Source: a virus
Reading direction: 5' to 3' (one strand)
Virus record (IMG/VR): IMGVR_UViG_3300037808_000042
Location: 1-20,379 of that record
DNA length: 20,379 nt
Shown: positions 4,455-20,370 of the stretch, piece after piece
How positions within the stretch are numbered: position 1 is the stretch's first letter
Layout: every line of letters starts with the position of its first letter
Program-made: the position numbers and the translations under genes
Notes under the pieces: generated by a model
What the model saw: the letters and a program-made list of their open reading frames with translations, nothing else
What the model was told of the DNA's origin: nothing
The model's database searches: none

Positions 4455-5081
4455 ATGACTCAATCAACTGACTTGCTAAATAAGTGGCAGCCTGTTTTAG
4501 AGCATCCTGAACTAGATAAAATCACGGATGCACATAAAAAGGCAACTATTGCTACACTTTTAGAAAATCAAGAAATCGCTGCCAGAGAACAAGCATCTAA
4601 CGGCGGAAACTTTAATCCAACTTTACTAGGTGAAGCTGCTCCAACAAACGCAATGGGTGGTTCTTCATCTACTGCATCTGCAGGTAACGTAGATATCTTC
4701 GATCCAGTGTTAATCTCACTAGTTCGTCGTTCTATGCCTAACTTAATTGCATACGATATCGCTGGTGTTCAACCAATGACTGGTCCTACTGGACTTATCT
4801 TCGCAATGCGTTCTAAGTACACTTCACAAAGTGGTACTGAAGCAATGTTCAATGAAGCAAATACTTCATTCTCTGCATCTGCGTCAGGTAATACTGCTTC
4901 TTTAGGTGTTGCTAACGGTGCTGCAGGTACTGCTCAAACTGGTACAGATCCTAACGATCGTGCTTCTGGTTCTGGTTACACTGTAGAAACTGGTATGTCT
5001 ACTGCTGATGCTGAAAAATTAGGCGATACTGCTAATAACGGTTTCAACGAAATGGCATTCTCAATCGAGAAAGTTGTTTAG
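4455..5081 (+). CDS. 23: Major capsid protein gp23, N-terminal part (gene disrupted)
   Basis: This is the first 208 residues of the HK97-fold major capsid protein, with a strong RBS (AAAGGAG). The N-terminal propeptide ends at L58-G59-E60|A61, matching the T4 gp23 maturation site at E65|A66. Family blocks follow, including FDPVLISLVRRSMPNLIAYDI and GVQPMTGPTGLIFAMRSKY. The frame stops at a TAG (5079-5081) right after FSIEKVV. In intact gp23 proteins this position continues with about 26 conserved residues (T4: TVAAKSRALKAQYSIEMAQD and onward to HG) before LDA-E. Here that segment is absent and the rest resumes in another frame from 5078. This is either a lethal 76-base deletion in the sampled molecule or an assembly error. 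Confidence 0.93.
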   Translation: MTQSTDLLNKWQPVLEHPELDKITDAHKKATIATLLENQEIAAREQASNGGNFNPTLLGEAAPTNAMGGSSSTASAGNVDIFDPVLISLVRRSMPNLIAYDIAGVQPMTGPTGLIFAMRSKYTSQSGTEAMFNEANTSFSASASGNTASLGVANGAAGTAQTGTDPNDRASGSGYTVETGMSTADAEKLGDTANNGFNEMAFSIEKVV

Positions 5082-5755
5082 ATGCTGAGACTGAATTATC
5101 TAACATCTTATCTGCTGAAATCCTTTCAGAGATTAACCGTGAAGTAATTCGTACTATCAACTACTCTGCTGTAGCAGGTGCTCAAAAGAACACTACTACT
5201 GCTGGTACTTTCGACTTAGATACTGATTCTAATGGTCGTTGGTCAGTTGAGAAGTTCAAAGGTTTAATGTTCCAAATCGAACGTGATGCTAATGAAATTG
5301 CTAAGTCTACTCGTCGTGGTAAGGGTAACATTATGATCACTTCATCTGACGTTGCTTCTGCACTTCAAATGGCTGGTGTTCTAGATTACACTCCTGCGTT
5401 GTCAAACAACTTACAAGTAGATGATACTGGTAATACGTTTGCTGGTGTTATGAATGGTCGGATCAAAGTTTACATTGATCCGTACTTCTCAGATGCTACT
5501 AACAACTACTACACAATGGGTTACAAAGGTTCTTCTGCATTCGATGCTGGTATCTTCTACTGCCCATACGTTCCTTTACAAATGGTTCGTGCAGTTGGTG
5601 AAAACTCTTTCCAACCTAAGATTGGCTTCAAGACTCGTTACGGCATGGTTTCAAACCCATTTGCTACTAACGATGCTAACGGTGTTGCTGCTCGTTTAGG
5701 TTCTGGCGATGGTAACATCTACTACCGTTTGACTAAGATTACTAACTTAATGTAA
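5078..5755 (+). CDS. 23: Major capsid protein gp23, C-terminal part (out of frame with the N-terminal part)
   Basis: This is the remaining 225 residues of gp23, in a different frame from the upstream part and without its own start or RBS at its beginning. The first in-frame ATG is 5267, deep within conserved sequence. From 5078 it reads LDAETELSNILSAEILSEIN, then NREVIRTINYS, FQIERDANEIAKSTRRGKGN, VFAGV-like TFAGVMNGRIKVYIDPYF, FDAGIFYCPYVPLQMVRAV and FQPKIGFKTRYGMVSNPFA, all capsid-shell blocks of the T4 gp23 family, through to the natural end. A terminator follows directly. With the missing 26 residues the whole protein would be about 459 residues, a reasonable length for the family (T4 521). 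Confidence 0.9.
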   Translation, partial: LDAETELSNILSAEILSEINREVIRTINYSAVAGAQKNTTTAGTFDLDTDSNGRWSVEKFKGLMFQIERDANEIAKSTRRGKGNIMITSSDVASALQMAGVLDYTPALSNNLQVDDTGNTFAGVMNGRIKVYIDPYFSDATNNYYTMGYKGSSAFDAGIFYCPYVPLQMVRAVGENSFQPKIGFKTRYGMVSNPFATNDANGVAARLGSGDGNIYYRLTKITNLM

Positions 5756-5871: not shown

Positions 5872-7035
5872 ATGGAATTAGGCTATGCCTTAAATACATT
5901 GTACTTCCTTGTCTCAGCAGTCTTAGTGATGTGGATGGCAGCAGGTTTTACAATGTTAGAAGCAGGATCGGTTCGTTCGAAGAACGTAACTGAGATCCTT
6001 ATAAAAAACGTAGCACTTTATAGTGTTGCGTCATTAACCTTCTTGTTTGTGGGTTACGAATTAATGTACGGTGGATGGAATGCTCCAGAAGACCACGCAT
6101 TGATGAGTGACTTTTTCTTTCAAGTAGTATTTGTAGCAACAGCAATGTCAGTGGTTTCTGGCGCTGTTGCTGAACGTAAGAAACTATGGTCATTCTTAGT
6201 TTTCGCAGCAATCTTTACTGCTGTGATTTACCCAATTCAAGGTTCTTGGAGTTGGGGTGGTGGCTGGTTGTCAGAAGTAGGATTCTTTGACTTTGCAGGT
6301 TCGGGAATTGTACACATGGCAGGTGCTGCAGCTGCATTAGCGGCAGTACTACTAATTGGTCCACGTAAGGGTAAGTATGATAAGAACGGAAATCCCGTTG
6401 CTATCCACGGTTCTAGTACAACGCAAGTTGCTCTAGGTACACTTATTCTTTGGATGGGTTGGTTTGGTTTTAATGGTGGTTCACAGTTAAGTATTTTAGG
6501 ATTAGACAATGCTAACGCAGTTGCTCAAATCTTTGTTAATACTAATACTGCGGCTGCTGCAGGTTTACTGAGTGCAATGGTGCTCTCAAAACTTTGGTTA
6601 AAGAAGACCGTTTTGAATGTGACTCTGAATGGTGCATTAGCAGGACTGGTAGTTATTACAGCAGATCCTCTAACACCTTCACCTGAAATCGCTGCATTAT
6701 ATGGTGCGATTGGTGGTTTGATTGTTCCTATTTCTATGGCATTGCTAGAGAAGTGGGGTATTGATGACCCAGTGGGTGCAATCAGTGTTCACGGAGTAGC
6801 AGGTATTGTGGGACTAATGTTGGTTCCAATTTTAAATACTGATGCTACATTATATGGACAAGCAGTTGGTACTGGTGCAATCTTCGGATTTGTATTTGGT
6901 ACTTCACTAATTGTCTGGTACTTACTCAAAAAGACTATTGGTCTGAGAGTAGGTGAAGATGAAGAACTTGCTGGTTCTGATATGTGGGAGACTGGTTCTT
7001 CTGCTTATCCAGAATTTATGGATAACAGCAAGTAG
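5872..7035 (+). CDS. amtB: AmtB-type ammonium transporter (auxiliary metabolic gene)
   Basis: This 387-residue inner-membrane channel of the Amt/MEP/Rh family would bring ammonium into the infected cell. About 11 membrane helices can be traced. The key residues of E. coli AmtB are present: the DFAGSG signature with D140 (D160 in E. coli), the twin pore histidines H148 and H307 (H168/H318), gate phenylalanines F87 and F200 (F107/F215), the recruitment-site W128 (W148) and S204 (S219). The C-terminal GLRV and the tail ending in AYPEF are also present; in host proteins this tail mediates subunit cross-talk and PII control. The protein starts directly at helix 1 without the cleaved signal peptide of E. 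coli AmtB, as many relatives do. No glnK gene is visible. The gene looks intact and is bounded by terminators, with its own late promoter. Confidence 0.97.
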   Translation: MELGYALNTLYFLVSAVLVMWMAAGFTMLEAGSVRSKNVTEILIKNVALYSVASLTFLFVGYELMYGGWNAPEDHALMSDFFFQVVFVATAMSVVSGAVAERKKLWSFLVFAAIFTAVIYPIQGSWSWGGGWLSEVGFFDFAGSGIVHMAGAAAALAAVLLIGPRKGKYDKNGNPVAIHGSSTTQVALGTLILWMGWFGFNGGSQLSILGLDNANAVAQIFVNTNTAAAAGLLSAMVLSKLWLKKTVLNVTLNGALAGLVVITADPLTPSPEIAALYGAIGGLIVPISMALLEKWGIDDPVGAISVHGVAGIVGLMLVPILNTDATLYGQAVGTGAIFGFVFGTSLIVWYLLKKTIGLRVGEDEELAGSDMWETGSSAYPEFMDNSK

Positions 7036-11646: not shown

Positions 11647-13359
11647 ATGATACATTTTTCGAAATTGAAATACAAAAACATATTGTCAACAGGTAATGTG
11701 TTCACTGAAATCCAACTAGACCGTTCTCCTAACACAATTGTTGTTGGTGAGAATGGAGCAGGTAAATCAAGTCTAATTGATGCCTTGTGTTTCGTGTTGT
11801 TTAATAAACCGTTCAGAGATATTAAGAAACAACAACTTGTAAACAGTATCAATAACAAGGATGCTTTAGTTGAGGTTGAGTTTAAAATCGGTTCGAATGA
11901 TTATAGAGTTCTTAGGGGAATTAAACCTAACATCTTTGAAATCTATAAGAACAACGAACTATTAAATCAGCCAGGAAGTTCTAGAGATTATCAAGCAACT
12001 CTAGAGGACACTATCCTCAAATTAAATTACAGATCGTTCACTCAAATTGTGGTGCTGGGTAACGCATCCTTCACTCCGTTTATGCAGTTGAAACCGTATG
12101 ACCGAAGAATTATTATTGAAGACTTATTAGATATTCAAATATTCTCTAATATGAATTTACTACTGAAGGATAGGGTATCAACCAATAAGAAAGACTCTCA
12201 AGAAATTGAATATCAAATCAACTTATCTGAAGACAAGATCCAAGTACAGCAGGAATACCTTGAGCAACTTAAACACGATGTAGATGACCAAATCAATTCT
12301 ATTGTAGTTGAACGTAATGGTTATGAACAAAGATACAATACGTCTGAGAGTGAGTGTTTTAAATTAGGTGATGCTGTAGACGGACTACTAAGTGAAGTTG
12401 GTCACGAAGCAAAGGTTAAGAACAAGTCTGCTAAGGTATCTGACTTATTACAGAAACTCCACGACAAAACTCATAACAGCACTAAACGTATGATGTTCTT
12501 TGAGAAGAATGATAACTGCCCAACGTGCGAGCAATTGATTGACTTGAAGATTAAGGCAGATAAAATCGAGACCACTCAGAAAACTATTAAGGAAACTGAA
12601 GCAGGTATTGAAACATTACTTGTAGAGCAGGATAAACTTGTGGTTGAGATGGATAAGATTGACGTGCTACAAAATTCAATCCAAGATAAGCAGTTGAAGA
12701 TTAGGGAACACCAATCTGAAATGAAACATATGCAGAAGAACGGTAAGTCTGCTAACACAAGAATTAGAACACTCCAGTCTAAGAACAAAGAAGATAATAA
12801 TGCTGAGAGTAAGATAAAAGAATTACAAAAGAGTATTAACTCACATAGTACGAATAGAGAAATCCTTTCTAATGAGAAGGAACTGTTTGGGTTTGCTTCA
12901 GGTATGCTAAAGGACGGTGGTATTAAGACTAGAATCATCCGTCAGTATATTCCTATTATGAACAAGTTGATTAATAAGTATCTAGCATCCCTTGAGTTCT
13001 TTGTAAACTTTGAATTGGATGAAGAGTTCAACGAAACAATTAAGAGTAGGTATCGTGATATATTTTCATATGCCAATTTCTCTGAAGGCGAGAAGATGCG
13101 TGTAGATTTGGCATTACTGTTTACTTGGCGAGCAATTGCTAAGATGAAGAACTCAACTAACACTAACCTATTAATTCTAGACGAAGTATTTGATGCATCA
13201 CTAGACTCAACTGGTTGTGATGAGTTCTTGAAACTATTGCACGACTTAGGAACTGAAACAAGCGTATTTGTCATTTCCCATAAGGGTGACATATTGATTG
13301 ATAAATTTAGAAGTAAGATTGAATTCCAAAAAATTAAAAACTTTAGCAGGATAGTATGA
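11647..13359 (+). CDS. 46: Recombination ATPase subunit gp46 (Rad50/SbcC-like)
   Basis: This is the 570-residue SMC-like ATPase (T4 gp46 560) partnering gp47. Walker A is GENGAGKS (34-41). A coiled coil (about 170-460) contains the zinc hook C291-P-T-C294. The ABC signature is FSEGEK (478-483), Walker B is LLILDE with D512 and E513, and the switch histidine is H545 (SHKGD). It is complete, with no sign of frameshift. Its own promoter lies so close to the ATG that the mRNA may be leaderless. Transcription from gp47 upstream could also cover it, with AAGG about 12 bases before the ATG as a weak RBS. It overlaps the next gene by 4 bases (ATGA). Confidence 0.97.
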   Translation: MIHFSKLKYKNILSTGNVFTEIQLDRSPNTIVVGENGAGKSSLIDALCFVLFNKPFRDIKKQQLVNSINNKDALVEVEFKIGSNDYRVLRGIKPNIFEIYKNNELLNQPGSSRDYQATLEDTILKLNYRSFTQIVVLGNASFTPFMQLKPYDRRIIIEDLLDIQIFSNMNLLLKDRVSTNKKDSQEIEYQINLSEDKIQVQQEYLEQLKHDVDDQINSIVVERNGYEQRYNTSESECFKLGDAVDGLLSEVGHEAKVKNKSAKVSDLLQKLHDKTHNSTKRMMFFEKNDNCPTCEQLIDLKIKADKIETTQKTIKETEAGIETLLVEQDKLVVEMDKIDVLQNSIQDKQLKIREHQSEMKHMQKNGKSANTRIRTLQSKNKEDNNAESKIKELQKSINSHSTNREILSNEKELFGFASGMLKDGGIKTRIIRQYIPIMNKLINKYLASLEFFVNFELDEEFNETIKSRYRDIFSYANFSEGEKMRVDLALLFTWRAIAKMKNSTNTNLLILDEVFDASLDSTGCDEFLKLLHDLGTETSVFVISHKGDILIDKFRSKIEFQKIKNFSRIV

Positions 13360-14030
13360 ACGAACTAATAATACCAGAATTGGACGAAGGTGAAAATCAC
13401 ATTTTTTTTGATTATAATCTTTCAAATTTTGATGATAAGGTTTATCACGCAAAATCGAATTTAGAATTAACAAAACAACTATTTCGAAAATGGAAAATTA
13501 TCAGGAAAAACGAAACACCAAAAGAAGAAGAATTAAAATCATTAGCAGGAGATCTTAAAGAAGAATATTATTATCGTTCGGGCATGGATATCCCTTTTAG
13601 TTATATTGAAAATTTTATTAAAGTCAATTTGGAACGGGGTTTTGATAGGGAAATTCTTGAAATCTCTTTCTGCAGAAAGGGTTCTGATAAACCCGATTTA
13701 TGGTTGAACGTGATGCATCGTTATGAACACAACCCATCACATAGTCACATTGGTTTATTCTCGTTTGTTTGGTATTTAGATATACCAGAAGAAATACGGC
13801 AAGAATGTTATAATCAAAAGTCCAATGGTAAAACGAGAGGGACGATTCAATTTGATTCAAATAGGACAAATATTCACTTTAATTTAAACCCAAAAACTGC
13901 AGACGTATTCATTTTTGAGTCTGGGCACAAACATCAAGTATATCCATTCTACACAGATAATGAAAGGTATTCTATGGCAGGAAATGTACATTCAATAACT
14001 TTTAAAGACGGAGAAACAATAACATCATGA
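13356..14030 (+). CDS. Small 2-oxoglutarate/Fe(II)-dependent oxygenase-like protein
   Basis: This 224-residue protein belongs to the phage 2OG-Fe(II) oxygenase-like group common in marine T4-like phages. The diagnostic region is LWLNVMHRYEHNPSHSHIGL with FSFVWYLDIP (residues 115-144), followed by DVFIFESGHKHQVYPFYTDN and ERYSMAGN (183-210). Likely iron ligands are in H129-S-H131 and H191 or H193, and R204 would hold 2-oxoglutarate. The HxH where most enzymes have HxD/E is typical of this phage group. The substrate is unknown; protein or small-molecule hydroxylation are possible. It overlaps gp46 and def by 4 bases each, so it is translationally coupled. Its codon use looks somewhat more AT-rich than its neighbours by eye, compatible with later acquisition. 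Confidence 0.8.
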   Translation: MNELIIPELDEGENHIFFDYNLSNFDDKVYHAKSNLELTKQLFRKWKIIRKNETPKEEELKSLAGDLKEEYYYRSGMDIPFSYIENFIKVNLERGFDREILEISFCRKGSDKPDLWLNVMHRYEHNPSHSHIGLFSFVWYLDIPEEIRQECYNQKSNGKTRGTIQFDSNRTNIHFNLNPKTADVFIFESGHKHQVYPFYTDNERYSMAGNVHSITFKDGETITS

Positions 14031-14527
14031 TATTAAAATTGACAGATGAAATATTAAGAGAACCAACTCAACGATTTGACTTTAGCAATCCACCAATGGA
14101 TCCGACTGAGTTATTTCAAAACTTGAGAGATACAATGATTGCTAACAACGGACTAGGACTTGCTGCAAATCAAGTAGGACTACCGTATAACGTATTTGTT
14201 ATTGGCAATCCTCATATTGAAGACAGTGTGTTCTCAGTATTCAATCCGACTATTGTAGATTACTCAGATGCAATTACATTAGGTGAAGAGGGTTGTTTGT
14301 CATTCCCTAACCTATTCGTTAAGGTTAAAAGGTCGAATATCATTAAAGCAAGGTTCTCCGGACACGATGGTAAGGTTGATACTATTAAGTTTGACGGGTT
14401 TACTGCTCGAGCATTCCAACACGAGTATGACCATTTACAAGGAGAGGTATTTACCCAAAAGACGTCTAAGTTCCACCTTGACAGGGCAAAACATAATAAG
14501 AAAAAACTTGACAGAATGTCTAAATAA
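14027..14527 (+). CDS. def: Peptide deformylase
   Basis: This 166-residue metalloenzyme removes the formyl group from the N-terminal methionine of new proteins. All three family motifs are intact: G42-L-G-L-A-A-N-Q49 (GxGxAAxQ), E88-G-C90-L-S (EGCLS, Cys metal ligand) and H132-E133-Y-D-H136 (HExDH). The C-terminal tail is short and basic. Peptide deformylases are known from marine phages, where they are thought to help keep protein maturation going late in infection. The start overlaps the preceding oxygenase gene (ATGA). A consensus promoter for the next gene lies in the last codons of this one. Confidence 0.96.
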   Translation: MILKLTDEILREPTQRFDFSNPPMDPTELFQNLRDTMIANNGLGLAANQVGLPYNVFVIGNPHIEDSVFSVFNPTIVDYSDAITLGEEGCLSFPNLFVKVKRSNIIKARFSGHDGKVDTIKFDGFTARAFQHEYDHLQGEVFTQKTSKFHLDRAKHNKKKLDRMSK

Positions 14528-14536
14528 GGGTATAAT
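14508..14536 (+). promoter_or_regulatory. Consensus sigma70 promoter for the TET/JBP-like dioxygenase gene
   Basis: A perfect TTGACA (14508-14513) and a perfect TATAAT (14531-14536) are separated by 17 bases. The -35 lies inside the end of def. An RBS (AGGAGA) precedes the ATG at 14559. It differs from the other repeated promoters, which use TTTACT as the -35, and should be strong and early. Confidence 0.88.
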
Positions 14537-14558
14537 ATAGTAATACATTAGGAGAAAT

Positions 14559-15995
14559 ATGGAAGAAATTACAATCAACGGCAACACTTGGCAGAAATAT
14601 AAAGGTGATGAAGGGCAAGACGTATTCATCGCAAAGTTTATGATTGACCAAGATAAATTATTAGGTAAGTACGTAGACGAATCATTTTATGACGTGCTAA
14701 TTGAGAACGATGCCGATGTGTATCTTCCCCCTGAATGTGATATGACTAAGAGTCAAGATTGTGATAATGTATGCTTTAAGTGTGTAGATGAGTCAAGACT
14801 AGCATTCAAATTCCGTAAGAACGTATTTACCCCTGAAGAACAGTTGGGTGCGTTTGAAGGATTGTACGATTCAGCAGTCGAGTCAAATAACCGTGGTATG
14901 GCAGCAGGTCCGAGAGTTGAACAGTCTGGTCATCGTGATTGGGTAACACCGTTCCAAGCAGATATCCTTGAATATTATGCTCAAGGGCAACCAACACCAG
15001 TAGATGGTTCTGACCCAATCGAAACTATTATTGAAAAGCACAAGACTAAGCAACACGAAACACGTGGGTCGGTTTGGTTACGTTCTAAGATTGAGGGAGA
15101 GTTCGGTGTATATACTGGGTTCTTTGATGTTGCTATGGAACGTTTCAAATCAATGGAAGTTTCTGAAGCAACAGACTATGTTAAGAGTGTTCGTAAGGAT
15201 ATGATATCAGATACATCGTATGCGTCACCAATGTGGTCAGGTATCGCAGGGTTTTATGGTAGATATCCACGTATTCCTTATGGTAGAGAAACTTCATACG
15301 TTGAACATAACCGTGCTAAGTTTGAGAAGTGTTATCCATTCGCAAGGAAACTTGATAAAGAATTTGCTCGATTGATTCCAGGTCGTTATGCTAAACAAAA
15401 AGAATTCGCAGATAGATTAGATCCTAAGTTTTTAATTGGTGAAGATACTGCATTAACAACGATTACTGTGAATACTACTCAGAGTGATAGAAATGCTAGA
15501 ATGGCATGCCATCGTGATGCAGGTTCTTTGAATGAAGGATTCTCAAACCTAACAGTAATTACTAAAGACGGTAAGAGTTGGAACGGTGGTTATCTTGTAG
15601 CACCAGAAGTACGTGCTGCAATTGATATTCGTCCAGGTGATTTGCTATTGATTGACAATATGCGTATCATCCACGGCAACACCCCTATTGAAGCACCTGA
15701 CTCGGGTGTTGAAGATATGTTAAGAATGAGTTTGATTTTCTATTACCGTGAGGATATGGATAAGTTAGGAACTTGGGATTATGAAAAGACTAGACGTGCT
15801 TATGTTGATAGTCGTAGGTTGAATAAAGAACATAAATTGTGGAGACCTTTCTGGAATGGAGTATCACCTAGTATGTGGCATGACGATGAATGGTATGATT
15901 ACCTAAGAGAACAAGATAAAGGTGAGGAATGGTTAGAGAATTATCATCCTGAAGCACTTGAAGAACACACAACACTAGAGGGGTTCTTCGCATAA
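14559..15995 (+). CDS. TET/JBP-like 2-oxoglutarate/Fe(II) dioxygenase, candidate DNA base hydroxylase
   Basis: This 478-residue protein has a C-terminal double-stranded beta-helix oxygenase domain. H318-R-D320 and H372 form the iron triad (ACHRDAG, IIHGN). The segment around NGGYLVAPEVRAAIDIRPGD continuing LLLIDN (342-367) is typical of the TET/JBP group, and R389 (LRMSLIFYYRED) would bind 2-oxoglutarate. Members oxidise thymine (JBP) or 5-methylcytosine (TET) in DNA. The N-terminal half has a cysteine cluster C60, C68, C72, C75 that could bind zinc, and the conserved-looking block SNNRGMAAGPR (109-119). The gene overlaps a nucleotide-sugar epimerase gene (TAATG) and is followed by a glycosyltransferase and a sugar mutase, which supports a role in making a glycosylated base. 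The family call is by motif; the substrate is inferred. Other 2OG oxygenase substrates remain possible. Confidence 0.72.
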   Translation: MEEITINGNTWQKYKGDEGQDVFIAKFMIDQDKLLGKYVDESFYDVLIENDADVYLPPECDMTKSQDCDNVCFKCVDESRLAFKFRKNVFTPEEQLGAFEGLYDSAVESNNRGMAAGPRVEQSGHRDWVTPFQADILEYYAQGQPTPVDGSDPIETIIEKHKTKQHETRGSVWLRSKIEGEFGVYTGFFDVAMERFKSMEVSEATDYVKSVRKDMISDTSYASPMWSGIAGFYGRYPRIPYGRETSYVEHNRAKFEKCYPFARKLDKEFARLIPGRYAKQKEFADRLDPKFLIGEDTALTTITVNTTQSDRNARMACHRDAGSLNEGFSNLTVITKDGKSWNGGYLVAPEVRAAIDIRPGDLLLIDNMRIIHGNTPIEAPDSGVEDMLRMSLIFYYREDMDKLGTWDYEKTRRAYVDSRRLNKEHKLWRPFWNGVSPSMWHDDEWYDYLREQDKGEEWLENYHPEALEEHTTLEGFFA

Positions 15996-16744
15996 TGGTT
16001 GTTGTTACTGGAGCAAAAGGTTATATCGGTTCATCCTTAATGAAAAAGTTAGAAGCAACTGGAATTGATATTGAAGAATGGGATATTCGTAATTCGACTG
16101 AACCCAATCCAGATGTAACTTGTGTTGTTCATCTTGCAGCACTTGTTCGTGTGGGTGAGAGTGTAGAAAAACCTGCTGAGTATTATGATACAAATGTTAC
16201 AGGAACGTTGAACGTTATTAAAGCATATCCTAATGCCAAATTCATTTTTGCTTCTACGGGTGCTGCATTCAGTCCCGACTCCCCGTATGGTCACGCAAAG
16301 GTTATGTCTGAACAAATGATTAAAGATATTTGTAAAGAATACACCATCTTCAGGTTCTATAACGTTGGTGGTGGAGTTCCTACTAACCCAGATGGGTTGC
16401 CTGGATCTATTATTAACGCAAAAGAAAAAGGGCAATTCACTATTTTTGGTAATGATTATGATACGAAGGATGGTACGTGTGTTCGGGATTATTTCCATAT
16501 TGAAGATTTGACTGACGCATTAGTCCGAGCAGTTAATGAACCTGCTGCGATGACAGACTACGAACCACTAGGTTCAGGAAAGTCATATACCGTTAAAGAG
16601 TATGTTGATGCATACCTAGCAAAGTATGGAAACGAATTTGAAGTAATTTATGGTGATAGACGTCCAGGTGATTTACCAATATCAGAAGTGCCATTCGTGT
16701 CGAAGTTTATGACACCCACAAAAACCCTAGAAGAAATCGTGTAA
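15995..16744 (+). CDS. NAD-dependent nucleotide-sugar epimerase, GalE-like
   Basis: This 249-residue short-chain dehydrogenase/reductase of the extended type probably converts UDP-glucose and UDP-galactose. The Rossmann NAD motif is TGAKGYIGS (5-13). Catalytic residues are S87/T88 and Y98-x3-K102 (YGHAK). The GalE hallmark DGTCVRDYFHIEDL lies at 159-172, and a GDRRPGDLP motif at 220-228 lies near the end. It is shorter than cellular GalE (about 338), mainly in the substrate-binding part, but all catalytic elements are present. It starts inside the dioxygenase stop (TAATG), so the two are translationally coupled. UDP-galactose made here would be the substrate of the mutase encoded downstream. 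Another sugar specificity is possible. Confidence 0.88.
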   Translation: MVVVTGAKGYIGSSLMKKLEATGIDIEEWDIRNSTEPNPDVTCVVHLAALVRVGESVEKPAEYYDTNVTGTLNVIKAYPNAKFIFASTGAAFSPDSPYGHAKVMSEQMIKDICKEYTIFRFYNVGGGVPTNPDGLPGSIINAKEKGQFTIFGNDYDTKDGTCVRDYFHIEDLTDALVRAVNEPAAMTDYEPLGSGKSYTVKEYVDAYLAKYGNEFEVIYGDRRPGDLPISEVPFVSKFMTPTKTLEEIV

Positions 16745-16747
16745 TAC

Positions 16748-16776
16748 TTTACTTTTGATGTGTAGTAGGGTATAAT
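16748..16776 (+). promoter_or_regulatory. Sigma70-like promoter for the glycosyltransferase-mutase pair
   Basis: TTTACT (16748-16753), a 17-base spacer and TATAAT (16771-16776) occur in the repeated form ACTTTACTTTT ... AGGGTATAAT. The gap to the ATG at 16800 carries a GGAG RBS. Confidence 0.85.
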
Positions 16777-16799
16777 ATAATAAATGATTGGAGTATAGA

Positions 16800-17837
16800 A
16801 TGAAGAAAATATTAGTTACTGGATTTACCAGAGCAGCTTGCACAAGAAACTTTCACGAGAAATCGCAGATAGGTTTGTGTACAGCACATTACAGTTTCGT
16901 TGAAGCATTAGAAGCATTGGGATGGGAAGTCGACCAAAGACCAGTAACTGCTGGTGAAGATATTTCGAAGTATGATAAAGTTGTAGTTTTCCTTATGCAT
17001 ATCTCACCTTATAATACACATATGTATGGTGCGTTATGGGCAATCTCTCAACGTCCCGATGCTTTGTTTGCAATCGAGGACTGGCAGTCTCCTAAGAACA
17101 TTAACACTTGGGTTGGTAAAGAAGATAAGATTCTCGAATCAATCACAAATGATTACTATATTAACAATGTCGTTGCAGAGAAAGAATTACGTCCAGAATG
17201 GAACGACGCATTTGGAAGAGCAATACGTTCTATCACAAAACAAAAGACTCCAATTACCCTTCCTGCTCATCTTGGCGGAGACTTTAAGATGTTATTTCCT
17301 AATTGGGACGAAAGTAAAGTGTTTTCTTGGCATGCATCAGCATATACGTTGCATAGAGAACCTTCTAGGTCTTTATTCGCAGAACCTAAAGAGTTTGTAT
17401 TCAACTTCGCTGGATTGATTCAATCAGAAACTGAGAAGTGGTTTAATAAAGTTACTGACGGTGCTACTTGGCAGATTATGCAATACGGATCTAAGTCTAA
17501 GAAACAAAAACGTTTAACTGAACAAGAGATGATGTCAAAATTCAACGACCATTGGGGAATCCTTATGGCAGGTTATTGGCATGCAGGTTCAGGTTGGTGG
17601 AGAGCAAGACCACAACAAACTGCTGACGTTGGTTCAATTCTTATATGTGAAGATAAAGAAGGTGCTATCTTTGGCGAACCGTATCTAGGTTTGACTTGTG
17701 CTAAGATTGAATCTATGTCGGTTGGTGAACTGGGCACACTTGCTTTAAATCAGAAAGAAGCATATTATGATTCTCAACCTATGGATAAATCGATTACTGA
17801 AAGACAAATTACGGAATATTTAGAATGCGAGTTCTAG
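16800..17837 (+). CDS. Putative GT-B glycosyltransferase
   Basis: This 345-residue protein has a two-domain layout like GT-B glycosyltransferases. The N-terminal Rossmann-like domain starts KKILVTGFTRAACTRNF and includes AHYSFVEALEALGWEVDQRP and a KVVVFLMHISPYNTH strand-loop. The C-terminal donor-binding-like part contains GILMAGYWHAGSGWWRARP, ADVGSILICEDKEG and GLTCAKIESMSVGELGTLAL, resembling the last strands and helices of phage DNA glycosyltransferases and related GT-B enzymes. I chose ATG 16800 (GGAG 6 bases upstream) over an in-frame TTG at 16788. It overlaps the UDP-galactopyranose mutase gene by 13 bases, so its likely donor is a UDP-sugar, possibly UDP-galactofuranose. The acceptor could be a hydroxylated DNA base or a surface glycan. 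The family call is by fold pattern only. Confidence 0.62.
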   Translation: MKKILVTGFTRAACTRNFHEKSQIGLCTAHYSFVEALEALGWEVDQRPVTAGEDISKYDKVVVFLMHISPYNTHMYGALWAISQRPDALFAIEDWQSPKNINTWVGKEDKILESITNDYYINNVVAEKELRPEWNDAFGRAIRSITKQKTPITLPAHLGGDFKMLFPNWDESKVFSWHASAYTLHREPSRSLFAEPKEFVFNFAGLIQSETEKWFNKVTDGATWQIMQYGSKSKKQKRLTEQEMMSKFNDHWGILMAGYWHAGSGWWRARPQQTADVGSILICEDKEGAIFGEPYLGLTCAKIESMSVGELGTLALNQKEAYYDSQPMDKSITERQITEYLECEF

Positions 17838-18835
17838 TTGTCGGTGCAGGTTTTGCTGGAGCAGTATATGCCAGAGAACTTGCCGAAGATGGATATGACG
17901 TAACTGTAATAGATGAGAGATTCCATATCGCAGGTAATGCGTATGATTATATTAATGATGACGGCATCCGTGTGCATAAGTATGGTCCACATATTTTCCA
18001 CACTAACAACGAAAGGGTTGTTGAGTGGTTATCTAATTTCACTGAATGGACTGAGTATAAGCATAAAGTATTAGCAAAGCATACAGATGGAAAGTTTTAT
18101 GTATTGCCAGTCAATCGTAAGACTAAAGAACTTCTAGGTGAGAAAAATATACTTGATATATTCTTCAAACCATACACTAAGAAAATGTGGGATAAAGAAT
18201 TAGAAGAACTCAACCCTAAGATCCTTGAACGTGTGCCAGTTCGTGATGACGATAATGAATTGTATTTCCCTGATGACAGTTTCCAAAAGATGCCGACAGA
18301 AGGTTATACTAAATTGTTTGAACGTATATTCGACCACGAAAATATTACAGTCAAGTTGAATACATCATTCAATAAAGATATGGAAGATGAATACGACCAC
18401 GTGTTTAATAGTATGCCTATTGACGTGTATTATGATAATCTACACGGTGAGTTGCCATATCGAAGTATTAAATTTGAGACGGTAACATTACCCGAGCAAA
18501 AGGTTTACAAAACATCCACAACAAACTTCACCACTTCTGGTGGTCCGACACGTGTAACTGAATGGAAAAACTTTCCTAATCACGGTAAGAATTTATATGC
18601 TACAACATTGACATACGAATTCCCTTGCGATTATAGAAGTAACAATATGGAAAGGTATTATCCAGTCAAAGACATTGAAGGGATTAACACTGAAGTTTAT
18701 AAGCAATACCGTGATGAACCGAATGATAAAGTTTCATTCATCGGTCGTTGCGGAACATATCAATATCTAGACATGCACCAAGTGATAAACCAGTCATTAG
18801 TCGGTGTTATGAAGTTTTTGAAATTAAATCACTAA
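17825..18835 (+). CDS. glf: UDP-galactopyranose mutase
   Basis: This 336-residue flavoenzyme (E. coli Glf 367) interconverts UDP-galactopyranose and UDP-galactofuranose. It has the FAD motif GAGFAGA (7-13), the GNAYD and GPHIFHTNN (54-62) blocks, the PYTKKMW helix, RVPVRDDDNELYFPDDSFQ, a KMPTEGYTKLFERI stretch, and the C-terminal YYPVKD and FIGRCGTYQYLDMHQVINQS block that closes the FAD site. All major motifs are present and the gene looks functional. It is co-transcribed and overlaps by 13 bases with the upstream glycosyltransferase gene, and the GalE-like epimerase lies two genes earlier. That gives a UDP-Glc to UDP-Gal to UDP-Galf route. A promoter for the next gene begins right after the stop. 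Confidence 0.96.
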   Translation: MRVLVVGAGFAGAVYARELAEDGYDVTVIDERFHIAGNAYDYINDDGIRVHKYGPHIFHTNNERVVEWLSNFTEWTEYKHKVLAKHTDGKFYVLPVNRKTKELLGEKNILDIFFKPYTKKMWDKELEELNPKILERVPVRDDDNELYFPDDSFQKMPTEGYTKLFERIFDHENITVKLNTSFNKDMEDEYDHVFNSMPIDVYYDNLHGELPYRSIKFETVTLPEQKVYKTSTTNFTTSGGPTRVTEWKNFPNHGKNLYATTLTYEFPCDYRSNNMERYYPVKDIEGINTEVYKQYRDEPNDKVSFIGRCGTYQYLDMHQVINQSLVGVMKFLKLNH

Positions 18836-18981: not shown

Positions 18982-20370
18982 ATGTTAGACCACGACAACG
19001 TAATAAAAACAGTTAAAGACACAATCGAAGATGTCCGTAACAAAGTAATCAACCCAGACCCAATCGGTCAAAGACCAGCAGTTTCTACTGGACTTAAAAA
19101 ACCCCGAGGCATTATTGATTCTATTCTGAATAGATATTCAATCGGTGTAATCACTGTGCGAGATATTGAGCATGATGATGAAAATCGAAAAGTCTACAAA
19201 GATTACAAATGGTTAGTTATTGATGGTGGAAATCGAATTAGAGCAATTAGGGATTTCAAAAAGGGCAAGTTTACTACTACTGCTGGAGAAACATACCTTT
19301 CTCTAAGCGATGAACAAAGGGAATTATTTGACACTACTAAATTGTTATTCCAAGTTTACATCTGCGACAATCACGAATCGACTGAGATCTTTCGTAGACT
19401 CAATACAGTAACACCAGTTAATCAGATTGAAATGATTATGGCAAATGATACTGCTCAAATAACTAAAGAAATTAGAACCCGTGTGAAAACGTTTAAAGAA
19501 TACGGACCGACTTCAACAAAACATAAAATCTTTAATACTGAAAGGAAAGATGATGGTAAGGATAAAGCATTGTACTGGAACACACCAGTAAATCCAAGAC
19601 GTAAGTGGGATGAGTATGTTGCTATCGTATTCATTAAAGTTATGGGTGGTGGTAACGTTGCTGCAGGTTTAGATGAGATTGAAGATCTCGTAAATGCTGG
19701 TCCAGTTATCACGTCTAGAGTTAAGAAACTCACTGATACATTTTTTAATGATGCGTTAAAGGTACTCGATGGATTTGATGCTAAGATGAATGCTAATAGT
19801 TTCGGTGCTTTTCAGGCAGTATGGTTTGAACTGCTTGAACGTAACAGGGTTTTCGCAATCAAAGACCATGAAAAGTTTGGTGAAGAATTCTTTAAGGCAC
19901 ACAAAAACTTAACTGGCAATAGCAATGCTGATTATGAAATTGACGTTAGGGAGTTCAAGACTGGGGAACGTAACACTACAAAGGTTGTTAAGGAACTTGT
20001 TAAGACGTTTGCTCGATCTGCGATTAAATATCCTTCAAACCCATCTCAACAACATGAGGTTGCGAAATTATATCTTCATGAGATGGATATTGATGATGCG
20101 ATTCTTTATAAAGATACCCGAAGAACCATCACTAAAGATAAGAAGTTTGAGATGCTTGTACAACAAGACTTCCGTTGTGCTATTGACGGTGAACCATTGA
20201 GTATTGAAGATGCTATCTTTGGACACGACACGCCTTGGAGTAAGGGTGGTACTATTGAAGATGGTGCTATTATTCGTAAAGAGCATAATGTAGCAATGGG
20301 TGCTTTAATGAATCTAGATGAATACCGACATCACCTTGAGTATCAACGTAATCAGCGTGCCAGTGCTTAA
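18982..20370 (+). CDS. DUF262 (ParB/GmrS-like) plus HNH nuclease protein
   Basis: This 462-residue protein joins an N-terminal DUF262 domain and a C-terminal HNH nuclease domain. DUF262 features are GQRPAVSTGLKKPRGIIDSI with LNRYSIGVITV (29-59) and the NTPase-like motif V-I-D81-G-G-N-R85 in place of the usual DGQQR. The HNH part includes F-R-C399, then GHDTPWSKGG (H415, D416) and a terminal H435-N436. DUF262-HNH/DUF1524 proteins include GmrS-GmrD, type IV restriction enzymes that cleave glucosylated hydroxymethylcytosine DNA. A phage copy could degrade host or rival phage DNA, act as a homing-like nuclease, or interact with the phage's own modified DNA. Function is inferred from architecture. 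The gene has its own promoter and a long leader. Confidence 0.82.
   Translation: MLDHDNVIKTVKDTIEDVRNKVINPDPIGQRPAVSTGLKKPRGIIDSILNRYSIGVITVRDIEHDDENRKVYKDYKWLVIDGGNRIRAIRDFKKGKFTTTAGETYLSLSDEQRELFDTTKLLFQVYICDNHESTEIFRRLNTVTPVNQIEMIMANDTAQITKEIRTRVKTFKEYGPTSTKHKIFNTERKDDGKDKALYWNTPVNPRRKWDEYVAIVFIKVMGGGNVAAGLDEIEDLVNAGPVITSRVKKLTDTFFNDALKVLDGFDAKMNANSFGAFQAVWFELLERNRVFAIKDHEKFGEEFFKAHKNLTGNSNADYEIDVREFKTGERNTTKVVKELVKTFARSAIKYPSNPSQQHEVAKLYLHEMDIDDAILYKDTRRTITKDKKFEMLVQQDFRCAIDGEPLSIEDAIFGHDTPWSKGGTIEDGAIIRKEHNVAMGALMNLDEYRHHLEYQRNQRASA

Follow-up and report, generated by a model that had tools for sequence, protein, structure and literature searches.

The virus record IMGVR_UViG_3300037808_000042 of IMG/VR, analysed here over its entire length of 20,379 bases (the window), carries four adjacent genes on its plus strand at positions 14559–18835, which probably constitute a DNA base hypermodification cassette. 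They encode a TET/JBP-family dioxygenase (TET), a GalE-like epimerase (GalE), a GT-B glycosyltransferase (GT) and a UDP-galactopyranose mutase (Glf), and the sugar added would be galactofuranose, with thymine as the most likely base. The pathway that we propose has three steps: 1) The dioxygenase would act on freshly replicated phage DNA and hydroxylate a pyrimidine at its 5-methyl group, the likeliest conversion being that of thymine to 5-hydroxymethyluracil (5hmU). 2) GalE would convert UDP-glucose to UDP-galactose, from which Glf would produce UDP-galactofuranose (UDP-Galf). 3) The transferase, with the fold of the T4 DNA beta-glucosyltransferase (BGT), would add galactofuranose to the hydroxymethyl group. 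The predicted product is a galactofuranosyl-oxymethyl-uracil, which would resemble trypanosome base J except that the sugar is galactose in its five-membered ring form; were cytosine the base, it would be the galactofuranosyl counterpart of the glucosylated 5-hydroxymethylcytosine (5hmC) of T4. An earlier reading of the DNA letters (the original prediction) had put forward such a four-gene route to a sugar-modified base, and structure comparisons, conservation of the cluster and exchange of its partners all favour it, the product being one that we infer. A more specific idea, to which we give slightly less than an even chance, is that this is a virus-made relative of base J, in which a clamp-tethered TET acts on thymine and galactofuranose is added, with the TET locus serving as a general docking site in T4-like phages, at which a single hydroxylase supplies a variety of interchangeable end chemistries.

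The genes and sites on which the argument draws are:

14559..15995, plus strand: TET/JBP-family 2-oxoglutarate (2OG)- and Fe(II)-dependent dioxygenase, 478 aa (Pfam Tet_JBP above cut-off, AlphaFold model matches)
15510..15518, plus strand: HxD iron-binding motif, H318 and D320 of the dioxygenase (invariant alignment columns)
15672..15674 and 15723..15725, plus strand: distal H372 and R389 of the dioxygenase, respectively, which complete the iron/2OG motif set
15969..15992, plus strand: C-terminal tail TTLEGFFA of the dioxygenase, proposed sliding-clamp-binding peptide (likeness to phage DNA polymerase tails)
15995..16744, plus strand: UDP-glucose 4-epimerase-like (GalE) protein, 249 aa (PF01370, PDB matches)
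16800..17837, plus strand: GT-B transferase, 345 aa from the ATG at 16800 (AlphaFold model, T4 BGT-like fold)
17079..17081, plus strand: Asp94 of the transferase, invariant, candidate catalytic residue (alignments, model)
17825..18835, plus strand: UDP-galactopyranose mutase (Glf), 336 aa (Pfam GLF, PDB 3hdq)

The four open reading frames (ORFs) lie where the original prediction had placed them, and the overlap of 13 bases between the transferase gene and glf is likewise present. An upstream TTG at 16788 offers an alternative start for the transferase, which would then have 349 aa and the same end at 17837. The ATG of the epimerase gene and the stop codon of the TET gene have one base in common (TAATG), and the translational coupling that the original prediction read for this pair is accordingly plausible. 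Pfam profiles identify three of the four proteins with scores far beyond chance. The sequence gggtataatata is found at 14528–14539, before the TET gene, and at 16768–16779, before the GT gene, with no other plus-strand copy in the window; as it precedes both genes, two transcription starts are possible. The remainder of the window is T4-like, with genes for the portal, head protease, scaffold, major head protein, tail tube, a helicase, a late sigma factor and SbcD/SbcC-like proteins, and a separate contig of 38,425 bases encodes proteins 100% identical to those of the window.

Affinities of the dioxygenase

The dioxygenase matches the Pfam profile Tet_JBP (PF12851) with 46 bits (cut-off 34.9; E 4e-12), and in a HMMER alignment its motif residues fall on the HRD of TET2 and on the distal H/R region there. 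H318-x-D320, H372 and R389 are unchanged across an alignment of 38 TETs; by analogy with the TET family, H318, D320 and H372 presumably form the iron triad and R389 presumably binds 2OG. A sequence-profile search of the PDB placed clavaminate synthase (E 0.008) ahead of human TET2 (E 0.017). Because the profile alone left that enzyme above TET2, the class was decided by fold, which favoured TET. The AlphaFold model (predicted local distance difference test, pLDDT, 84.6) retrieved exclusively TET-type proteins as its top 22 Foldseek matches, followed by FTO. In VIA-align comparisons TET-type proteins scored Z 17.4–19.3, including CMD1 (19.3), TET2 (19.1), NgTET1 (18.3) and CcTet (17.6), and the best non-TET proteins were ALKBH3 (14.0) and AlkB (12.7). 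Among the 50 best VIA matches no small-molecule oxygenase was recognised, and a prolyl hydroxylase appeared at Z 12.0. The TET/JBP type, first assigned from motifs, is thus upheld by structure comparison, which puts the protein with TET2, NgTET1, CMD1 and CcTet, above AlkB and FTO, and on the strength of the model we propose that its substrate is a pyrimidine in DNA, hydroxylated at the 5-methyl group.

TET relatives were encountered in 121 viral stretches, the best 80 loci of which were used below. Those in phages DLP_6, Cr30, S-CBWM1 and HTVC112P are annotated in GenBank as SNF2 DNA repair protein, a label that looks like a carried-over misannotation.

The transferase and the supply of its sugar

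Pfam offers no match for the transferase at E values up to 1, TAGT (PF20691) included, and its only strong family match is phrog_14998 (E 5e-39). Its profile gave chance-level matches only against PDB sequences, and no sequence-profile link to the RB69 arabinosyltransferase candidate ORF003c was found. The AlphaFold model is of high quality (pLDDT 92.1; predicted template modelling score, pTM, 0.90), and its best VIA match is T4 BGT (1nzd; Z 18.1 over 298 of 345 residues, root mean square deviation 3.8, 11% identity), the next different protein being glycogen synthase (Z 16.2), with the T4 alpha-glucosyltransferase (AGT) at 14.3. Foldseek ranks antibiotic glycosyltransferases and T4 AGT first. 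The comparison with DNA glycosyltransferase structures, named in the original prediction as a possible refutation, did not refute it, T4 BGT heading the VIA matches. The fold does not fix either the sugar or the acceptor; taking the model together with the gene context, we propose that the protein is a DNA galactofuranosyltransferase. Asp94 is invariant in 50 sequences and likewise in a set of 13 that includes relatives from Aeromonas, Erwinia, actinomycete and Providencia phages; judged by its position after a strand in the model, it may be the counterpart of Asp100 of T4 BGT, which we take to be the catalytic residue.

The epimerase matches PF01370 (E 1e-28), its closest PDB entries are UDP-glucose 4-epimerases (E 9e-32), and its YGHAK fits the YxxxK motif. 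Glf matches the Pfam profile GLF (PF03275; E 3e-52) and the UDP-galactopyranose mutase 3hdq (E 8e-69), the alignment to which covers the conserved stretches HKYGPHIFHT, LPYRS and TRVTEWK. The names originally given to both proteins therefore stand, and from these sequence affinities the epimerase is proposed to supply UDP-galactose and Glf to make UDP-Galf. Two epimerase lineages, about 70% and about 35% identical to the protein of the window, occupy the GalE position in related loci.

Conservation and history of the gene order

A close relative of the GT is encoded in 18 viral loci, one of which is the window's own virus (L091); the following counts refer to the other 17 (L092–L108). The TET gene lies upstream of the GT gene in all 15 loci with sequence there, an epimerase gene stands between them in 14 of these 15 (the exception being L099), and glf directly follows the GT gene in 15 of 15 loci with sequence on that side. 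The cluster is thus conserved in related phages, TET, GT and Glf being found together in 13 of the 17 loci, with the remaining four cut by contig ends. In the complete phage C48C1 the three genes are contiguous, and an epimerase-family gene is located elsewhere in the genome.

The TET-linked GTs form one clade on the GT tree. On the TET tree the 8 cassette-bearing rows require 8 gains or losses, at least 4 of which are forced by supported branches, and cassette-bearing TETs are no more clustered than shuffled labels. Since the TETs are scattered and the GTs constitute a single clade, the cassette would have switched TET backbones repeatedly, or have been lost beside many of them. Inspection by eye of L097 (3863–6007) suggests two additional genes, one cytidylyltransferase-like and following TET, the other of GT-B type and preceding the GT, which perhaps serve a longer sugar chain.

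Companions of the transferase point to a DNA acceptor

A wider viral search recovered GT relatives in 400 stretches; the best 79 loci were taken, and 62 loci are distant from the GT of the window. Gene content was tested in 50 GT records, mostly longer contigs, comprising 16 of the 18 close loci (without L091 and L095) and 34 of the 62 distant ones. The 16 TET-type records contain a TET in 14 cases, the other two contigs starting inside or at the GT gene, and neither the thymidylate synthase (TS) family (PF00303) nor a C5-methyltransferase (PF00145) occurs in any of the 16. The 34 distant records contain no TET, a TS-family protein in 30 and a C5-methyltransferase in 13. Across the 62 distant loci a TS-like gene lies within the available flanks of 53; within the BLAST alignment its products share 45–64% identity with T4 gp42, and all 53 have Asp at the column of ThyA Asn177 (control: T4 gp42, motif RSNDVVFGFRND), which we take to be the mark of dCMP enzymes. 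The 5-hydroxy-dCMP synthase of RB69 is a TS-family homologue too, according to the available text of PMC13390438. Five distant loci (L137, L163, L164, L176 and L190) display the full order gp42-like gene, dCMP deaminase, GalE, GT and Glf. The original prediction had proposed a search for hydroxymethylase and methyltransferase genes: the TET records tested yielded neither a TS-family gene nor a C5-methyltransferase, and a gp42-like dCMP hydroxymethylase accompanies the same GT in the sister clade. As judged from these neighbourhoods, the usual companion of the GT is a maker of a hydroxymethyl-pyrimidine, which is the strongest argument that the acceptor is DNA rather than a surface glycan.

Glf and GalE are common in surface-glycan pathways, and the sugar genes might accordingly decorate a virion protein or a host-surface glycan, their proximity to TET being due to chance or shared regulation. 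The Glf of Agrobacterium phage Atu_ph04 has been interpreted as a cell-wall galactofuranose gene (PMC6630229, in the text available), and Glf also occurs in Rhizobium and Streptococcus phages, which were not among the GT search matches. We nevertheless consider this explanation very improbable, as the neighbourhoods, fold and distribution of the GT all disfavour it: the same GT, mostly with Glf in TET-type loci, adjoins TET or gp42-like genes; its fold is BGT-like; and the slot beside TET otherwise holds enzymes of DNA-modification type. Moreover, the GT looks nearly confined to viruses, with 400 viral stretches against 3 loci in 2 metagenome-assembled genomes when one genome was searched for each of 84,980 species, a rough contrast, as the two scans used different peptide patterns. 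An enzyme of surface glycans ought to turn up in bacteria, so this distribution argues against such a role. In all 3 cellular loci Glf adjoins the GT, and one of them has a gp42-like gene.

A further alternative is that DNA is glycosylated with another sugar, such as glucose, galactopyranose or a pentose, and that UDP-Galf serves some other use or Glf takes another UDP-sugar. Glf is absent from 22 of the 34 distant GT records (it is present in 12 of these and in 14 of the 16 TET-type records), the Providencia GT relative has a SIS-domain neighbour, the Morganella relative overlaps a gene annotated as putative arabinose 5-phosphate isomerase, and arabinosylated phage cytosine is already known (PMC13390438, available text). 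Against this stands the tight linkage of Glf, which immediately follows the GT in every one of the 15 other TET-type loci whose sequence extends that far and overlaps it in the window. The two also adjoin in Aeromonas phage 25 and Erwinia phage FBB1, where Glf comes first, and in actinophage DSL-LC01, where the GT comes first. A GalE gene directly upstream of the GT accompanies Glf: among the distant loci it is seen in 10 of the 20 that have Glf and in none of the 42 for which no Glf was found. We accordingly rate a different sugar as rather improbable and retain galactofuranose on DNA as the reading inferred from the cluster.

Exchangeable chemistries beside TET

The position downstream of TET was surveyed in 81 loci (the 80 TET loci and C48C1), 77 of which, one being the window's virus, had a downstream gene called; the scan covered the three nearest genes on the forward strand, with starts no more than 2.3 kb away, and named families from one representative per cluster. 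A P-loop kinase (PF18751 in the representative) occupies 37 of the 77 slots, an aGPT-Pplase2-like protein 10, TAGT 12, a GT-B protein (PF00534) 7 and the window-type GT 3. A glycosyltransferase is present in 22 and a kinase or aGPT-Pplase2 in 38, and no slot holds both (Fisher p = 7e-9, a value that takes no account of relatedness). The TET loci thus look like a slot with swappable chemistries. The aGPT-Pplase2-like protein has no Pfam match, and its name comes from phage relatives, at least 3 among 376 records (3 in the 40 listed), that are annotated as alpha-glutamyl/putrescinyl thymine pyrophosphorylase clade 2. The window TET groups at 100/100 support with those of L005 (93% identity, GT-B in the slot), L007 (83%, GT-B), L008 (80%) and L011 (72%), the last two having aGPT and kinase in the slot; more generally, TETs 72–80% identical to that of the window (L008, L010–L012) adjoin aGPT-Pplase2 and a P-loop kinase. 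The viruses of the window, L005 and L008 are hence predicted to differ only in the group placed on the same hydroxymethyl base.

Other genes were seen in the same position. A glutamine amidotransferase-like protein follows TET in 17 of the 77 loci (for example L014, L022, L048, L057 and L064), none of which has a sugar transferase within the three genes examined, and an amidoligase-like protein, with a Pfam match below cut-off, follows it in 11; these genes are a possible further end chemistry. In L030 and L035 TET is followed by TAGT and a nucleotidyltransferase-kinase fusion (PF00483; APH below cut-off), which we read as a different sugar supply in the same TET slot.

Thymine or cytosine

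The original prediction allowed either thymine or 5-methylcytosine (5mC) as the substrate; the evidence now leans to thymine, because similar TETs adjoin thymine-type enzymes and no C5-methyltransferase was found, and from these gene associations we would put thymine at about twice as probable as cytosine or better. The absences were noted in 26 TET records, namely the complete C48C1 and 25 contigs drawn from the 80, most of them among the longer (one of the contigs is also in the 16-record GT set): PF00145 was found in 0 of 26, which leaves room for a host enzyme, and PF00303 in 0 of 26. The annotated DNA methyltransferase of C48C1 is of the N6-adenine D12 type.

The same cassette could act on cytosine, with TET oxidising 5mC made by a phage or host C5-methyltransferase and galactofuranosyl-5hmC as the product. 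This is suggested by the best structural matches of TET, which are 5mC enzymes, by the characterised phage TETs, which reportedly act on 5mC, and by the sister GT clade with its gp42-like dCMP hydroxymethylases (Asp in 53 of 53), in which 13 of 34 records also hold a C5-methyltransferase. It is opposed by the lack of PF00145 from all 26 TET records, C48C1 included, and all 16 TET-type GT records, and by the 72–80% identical TETs that adjoin aGPT-Pplase2, which is named for thymine, and a kinase. On balance we hold cytosine to be unlikely and thymine to be the preferred target. The large phage TET set could itself be used to ask how the family selects thymine or 5-methylcytosine.

A probable tether to the replication clamp

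The C-terminal tail of the dioxygenase belongs to an (S/T)L(E/D)xFF-like pattern, the strict form of which ends 79 of 95 TET ORFs (some contigs being included more than once); the other 16 comprise nine near variants, one split gene and six without the tail. Of 1853 proteins, 132 have the strict form, with many orthologues among them, as against 1.1 predicted from shuffled tails. Such tails also end DNA polymerases (13 of 17 of that family), TAGT and GT-B partners, and the adenine methyltransferase of C48C1. The polymerase of C48C1 ends in TLEDFFG and T4 gp43 in SLDFLFG, the latter being, as we assume, its sliding-clamp-binding peptide. The tail common to TET and the DNA polymerases suggests that TET acts on fresh DNA at the fork, and by this analogy TET is probably tethered to the replication clamp through its C-terminus.

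Several observations weigh against the pathway as proposed. 1) With regard to the base, the solved TETs among the matches listed, none of which is a JBP, have 5mC or related DNA as their substrates, and the GT lineage may have used 5hmC, since its sister clade pairs with gp42-type enzymes. The exclusivity of TET and gp42 amounts to a single switch on the GT tree, and the gene absences are weak evidence except in C48C1, because the records are mostly fragments. T4 BGT glucosylates 5hmU in single strands, and in duplex only when it is mispaired with G (PMC4111573, available text); owing to this limit a BGT-like enzyme acting on 5hmU:A would need a changed specificity, a point that cuts both ways. 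2) With regard to the transferase, sugar enzymes of other kinds come after T4 BGT at Z 16, the first 50 Foldseek matches include T4 AGT and no BGT, and hhalign gave a probability of 3.7% for the GT against T4 BGT (49 columns, single-sequence template). 3) The epimerase is short, with 249 aa against 330–348 aa for most PDB epimerases listed. 4) A clamp-like tail is lacking from the GT of the window and from the TETs of one clade that carries the same cassette (L102–L104, L106 and L108), as it likewise is from the TET of Cr30. 5) Losses, and not gains alone, could account for the changes on the TET tree, where the placement of two of the 8 rows, both long branches, is unsure.

Neighbouring genes

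Directly upstream of TET (13356–14527) are a second 2OG-Fe(II) oxygenase (PF13759) and a peptide deformylase. Downstream of the cassette, 18982–20370 encodes a 462-aa protein which by eye is ParB/DUF262-like with a C-terminal HNH-like stretch, and in which a likeness to GmrSD-type nucleases is seen by eye only; it has no Pfam match up to E 1, and its profile gave nothing useful against the PDB. Its relatives lie near TET in L004, L005, L007, L015, L056, L076, L094, L099, L102–L104 and L106, and in Tonitrus a ParB-like nuclease gene adjoins the tet-like gene (PMC11955845, available text). Within the structural gene block, 5872–7035 encodes an AmtB-type ammonium transporter (PF00909, E 1.6e-92) with homologues 90–100% identical in L005, L006 and L008. 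The major head protein (phrog_138) is split over ORFs 4455–5081 and 5267–5755, one matching each end of the profile while the middle is left uncovered; the cause would be an insertion, a broken reading frame or an error in sequencing.

Significance and comparison with known systems

Phage DNA that carries sugars withstands many nucleases of restriction and CRISPR systems, as established for T4, and the modification proposed here would likely protect the genome of the virus against the defences of bacteria. To our knowledge, mammals lack galactofuranose, which has been met chiefly on the surfaces of microbes; on DNA it would represent a new chemical class, and each new DNA sugar implies hosts and enzymes adapted to it. 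Among the open-access titles and opening lines of abstracts listed there is no prior description of galactofuranose on DNA, a limited negative in that Iyer 2013 in particular may list such clusters. A hydroxymethyl base that is sugar-modified by TET and a GT is of an already known kind; the new part is the GalE-Glf supply and the galactofuranose that it implies.

In the base J synthesis of kinetoplastids, a TET/JBP oxygenase (the JBP hydroxylase) is likewise followed by a glycosyltransferase (a glucosyltransferase) acting on a hydroxymethyl base, which in the present case is probably derived from thymine; the window differs in having a phage cluster with a BGT-like transferase, and GalE and Glf imply galactofuranose instead of glucose. 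The glucosylated 5hmC of T4, made by gp42 and the alpha- and beta-glucosyltransferases, offers a parallel in the BGT fold and in the adjacency of b-gt to gene 42. However, T4 makes the modified nucleotide, whereas here the base would be hydroxylated in DNA by TET; the sugar supply is different, and the structural match has 11% identity. The RB69/NP phages resemble the window in placing a sugar on a phage DNA base and in having sugar-supply genes, but there arabinose is attached to 5-hydroxycytosine produced by a TS-family enzyme (PMC13390438, available text). The title of a paper cited in that source names arabinofuranosylation, and the words "mutase" and "galact" are absent from the portion of its text searched. 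Phage systems with TET and TAGT (PF20691) use the same TET slot, in contrast to which the transferase of the window has no TAGT match and is accompanied by GalE and Glf. For Tonitrus, a Rhodococcus phage, the available text of PMC11955845 proposes thymidine hypermodification by a tet-like protein, aGPT-Pplase2 and a 5hmU DNA kinase; aGPT-Pplase2-like and kinase partners occupy the slot of TETs 72–80% identical to that of the window, in which sugar transfer would take the place of kinase and amino-acid chemistry.

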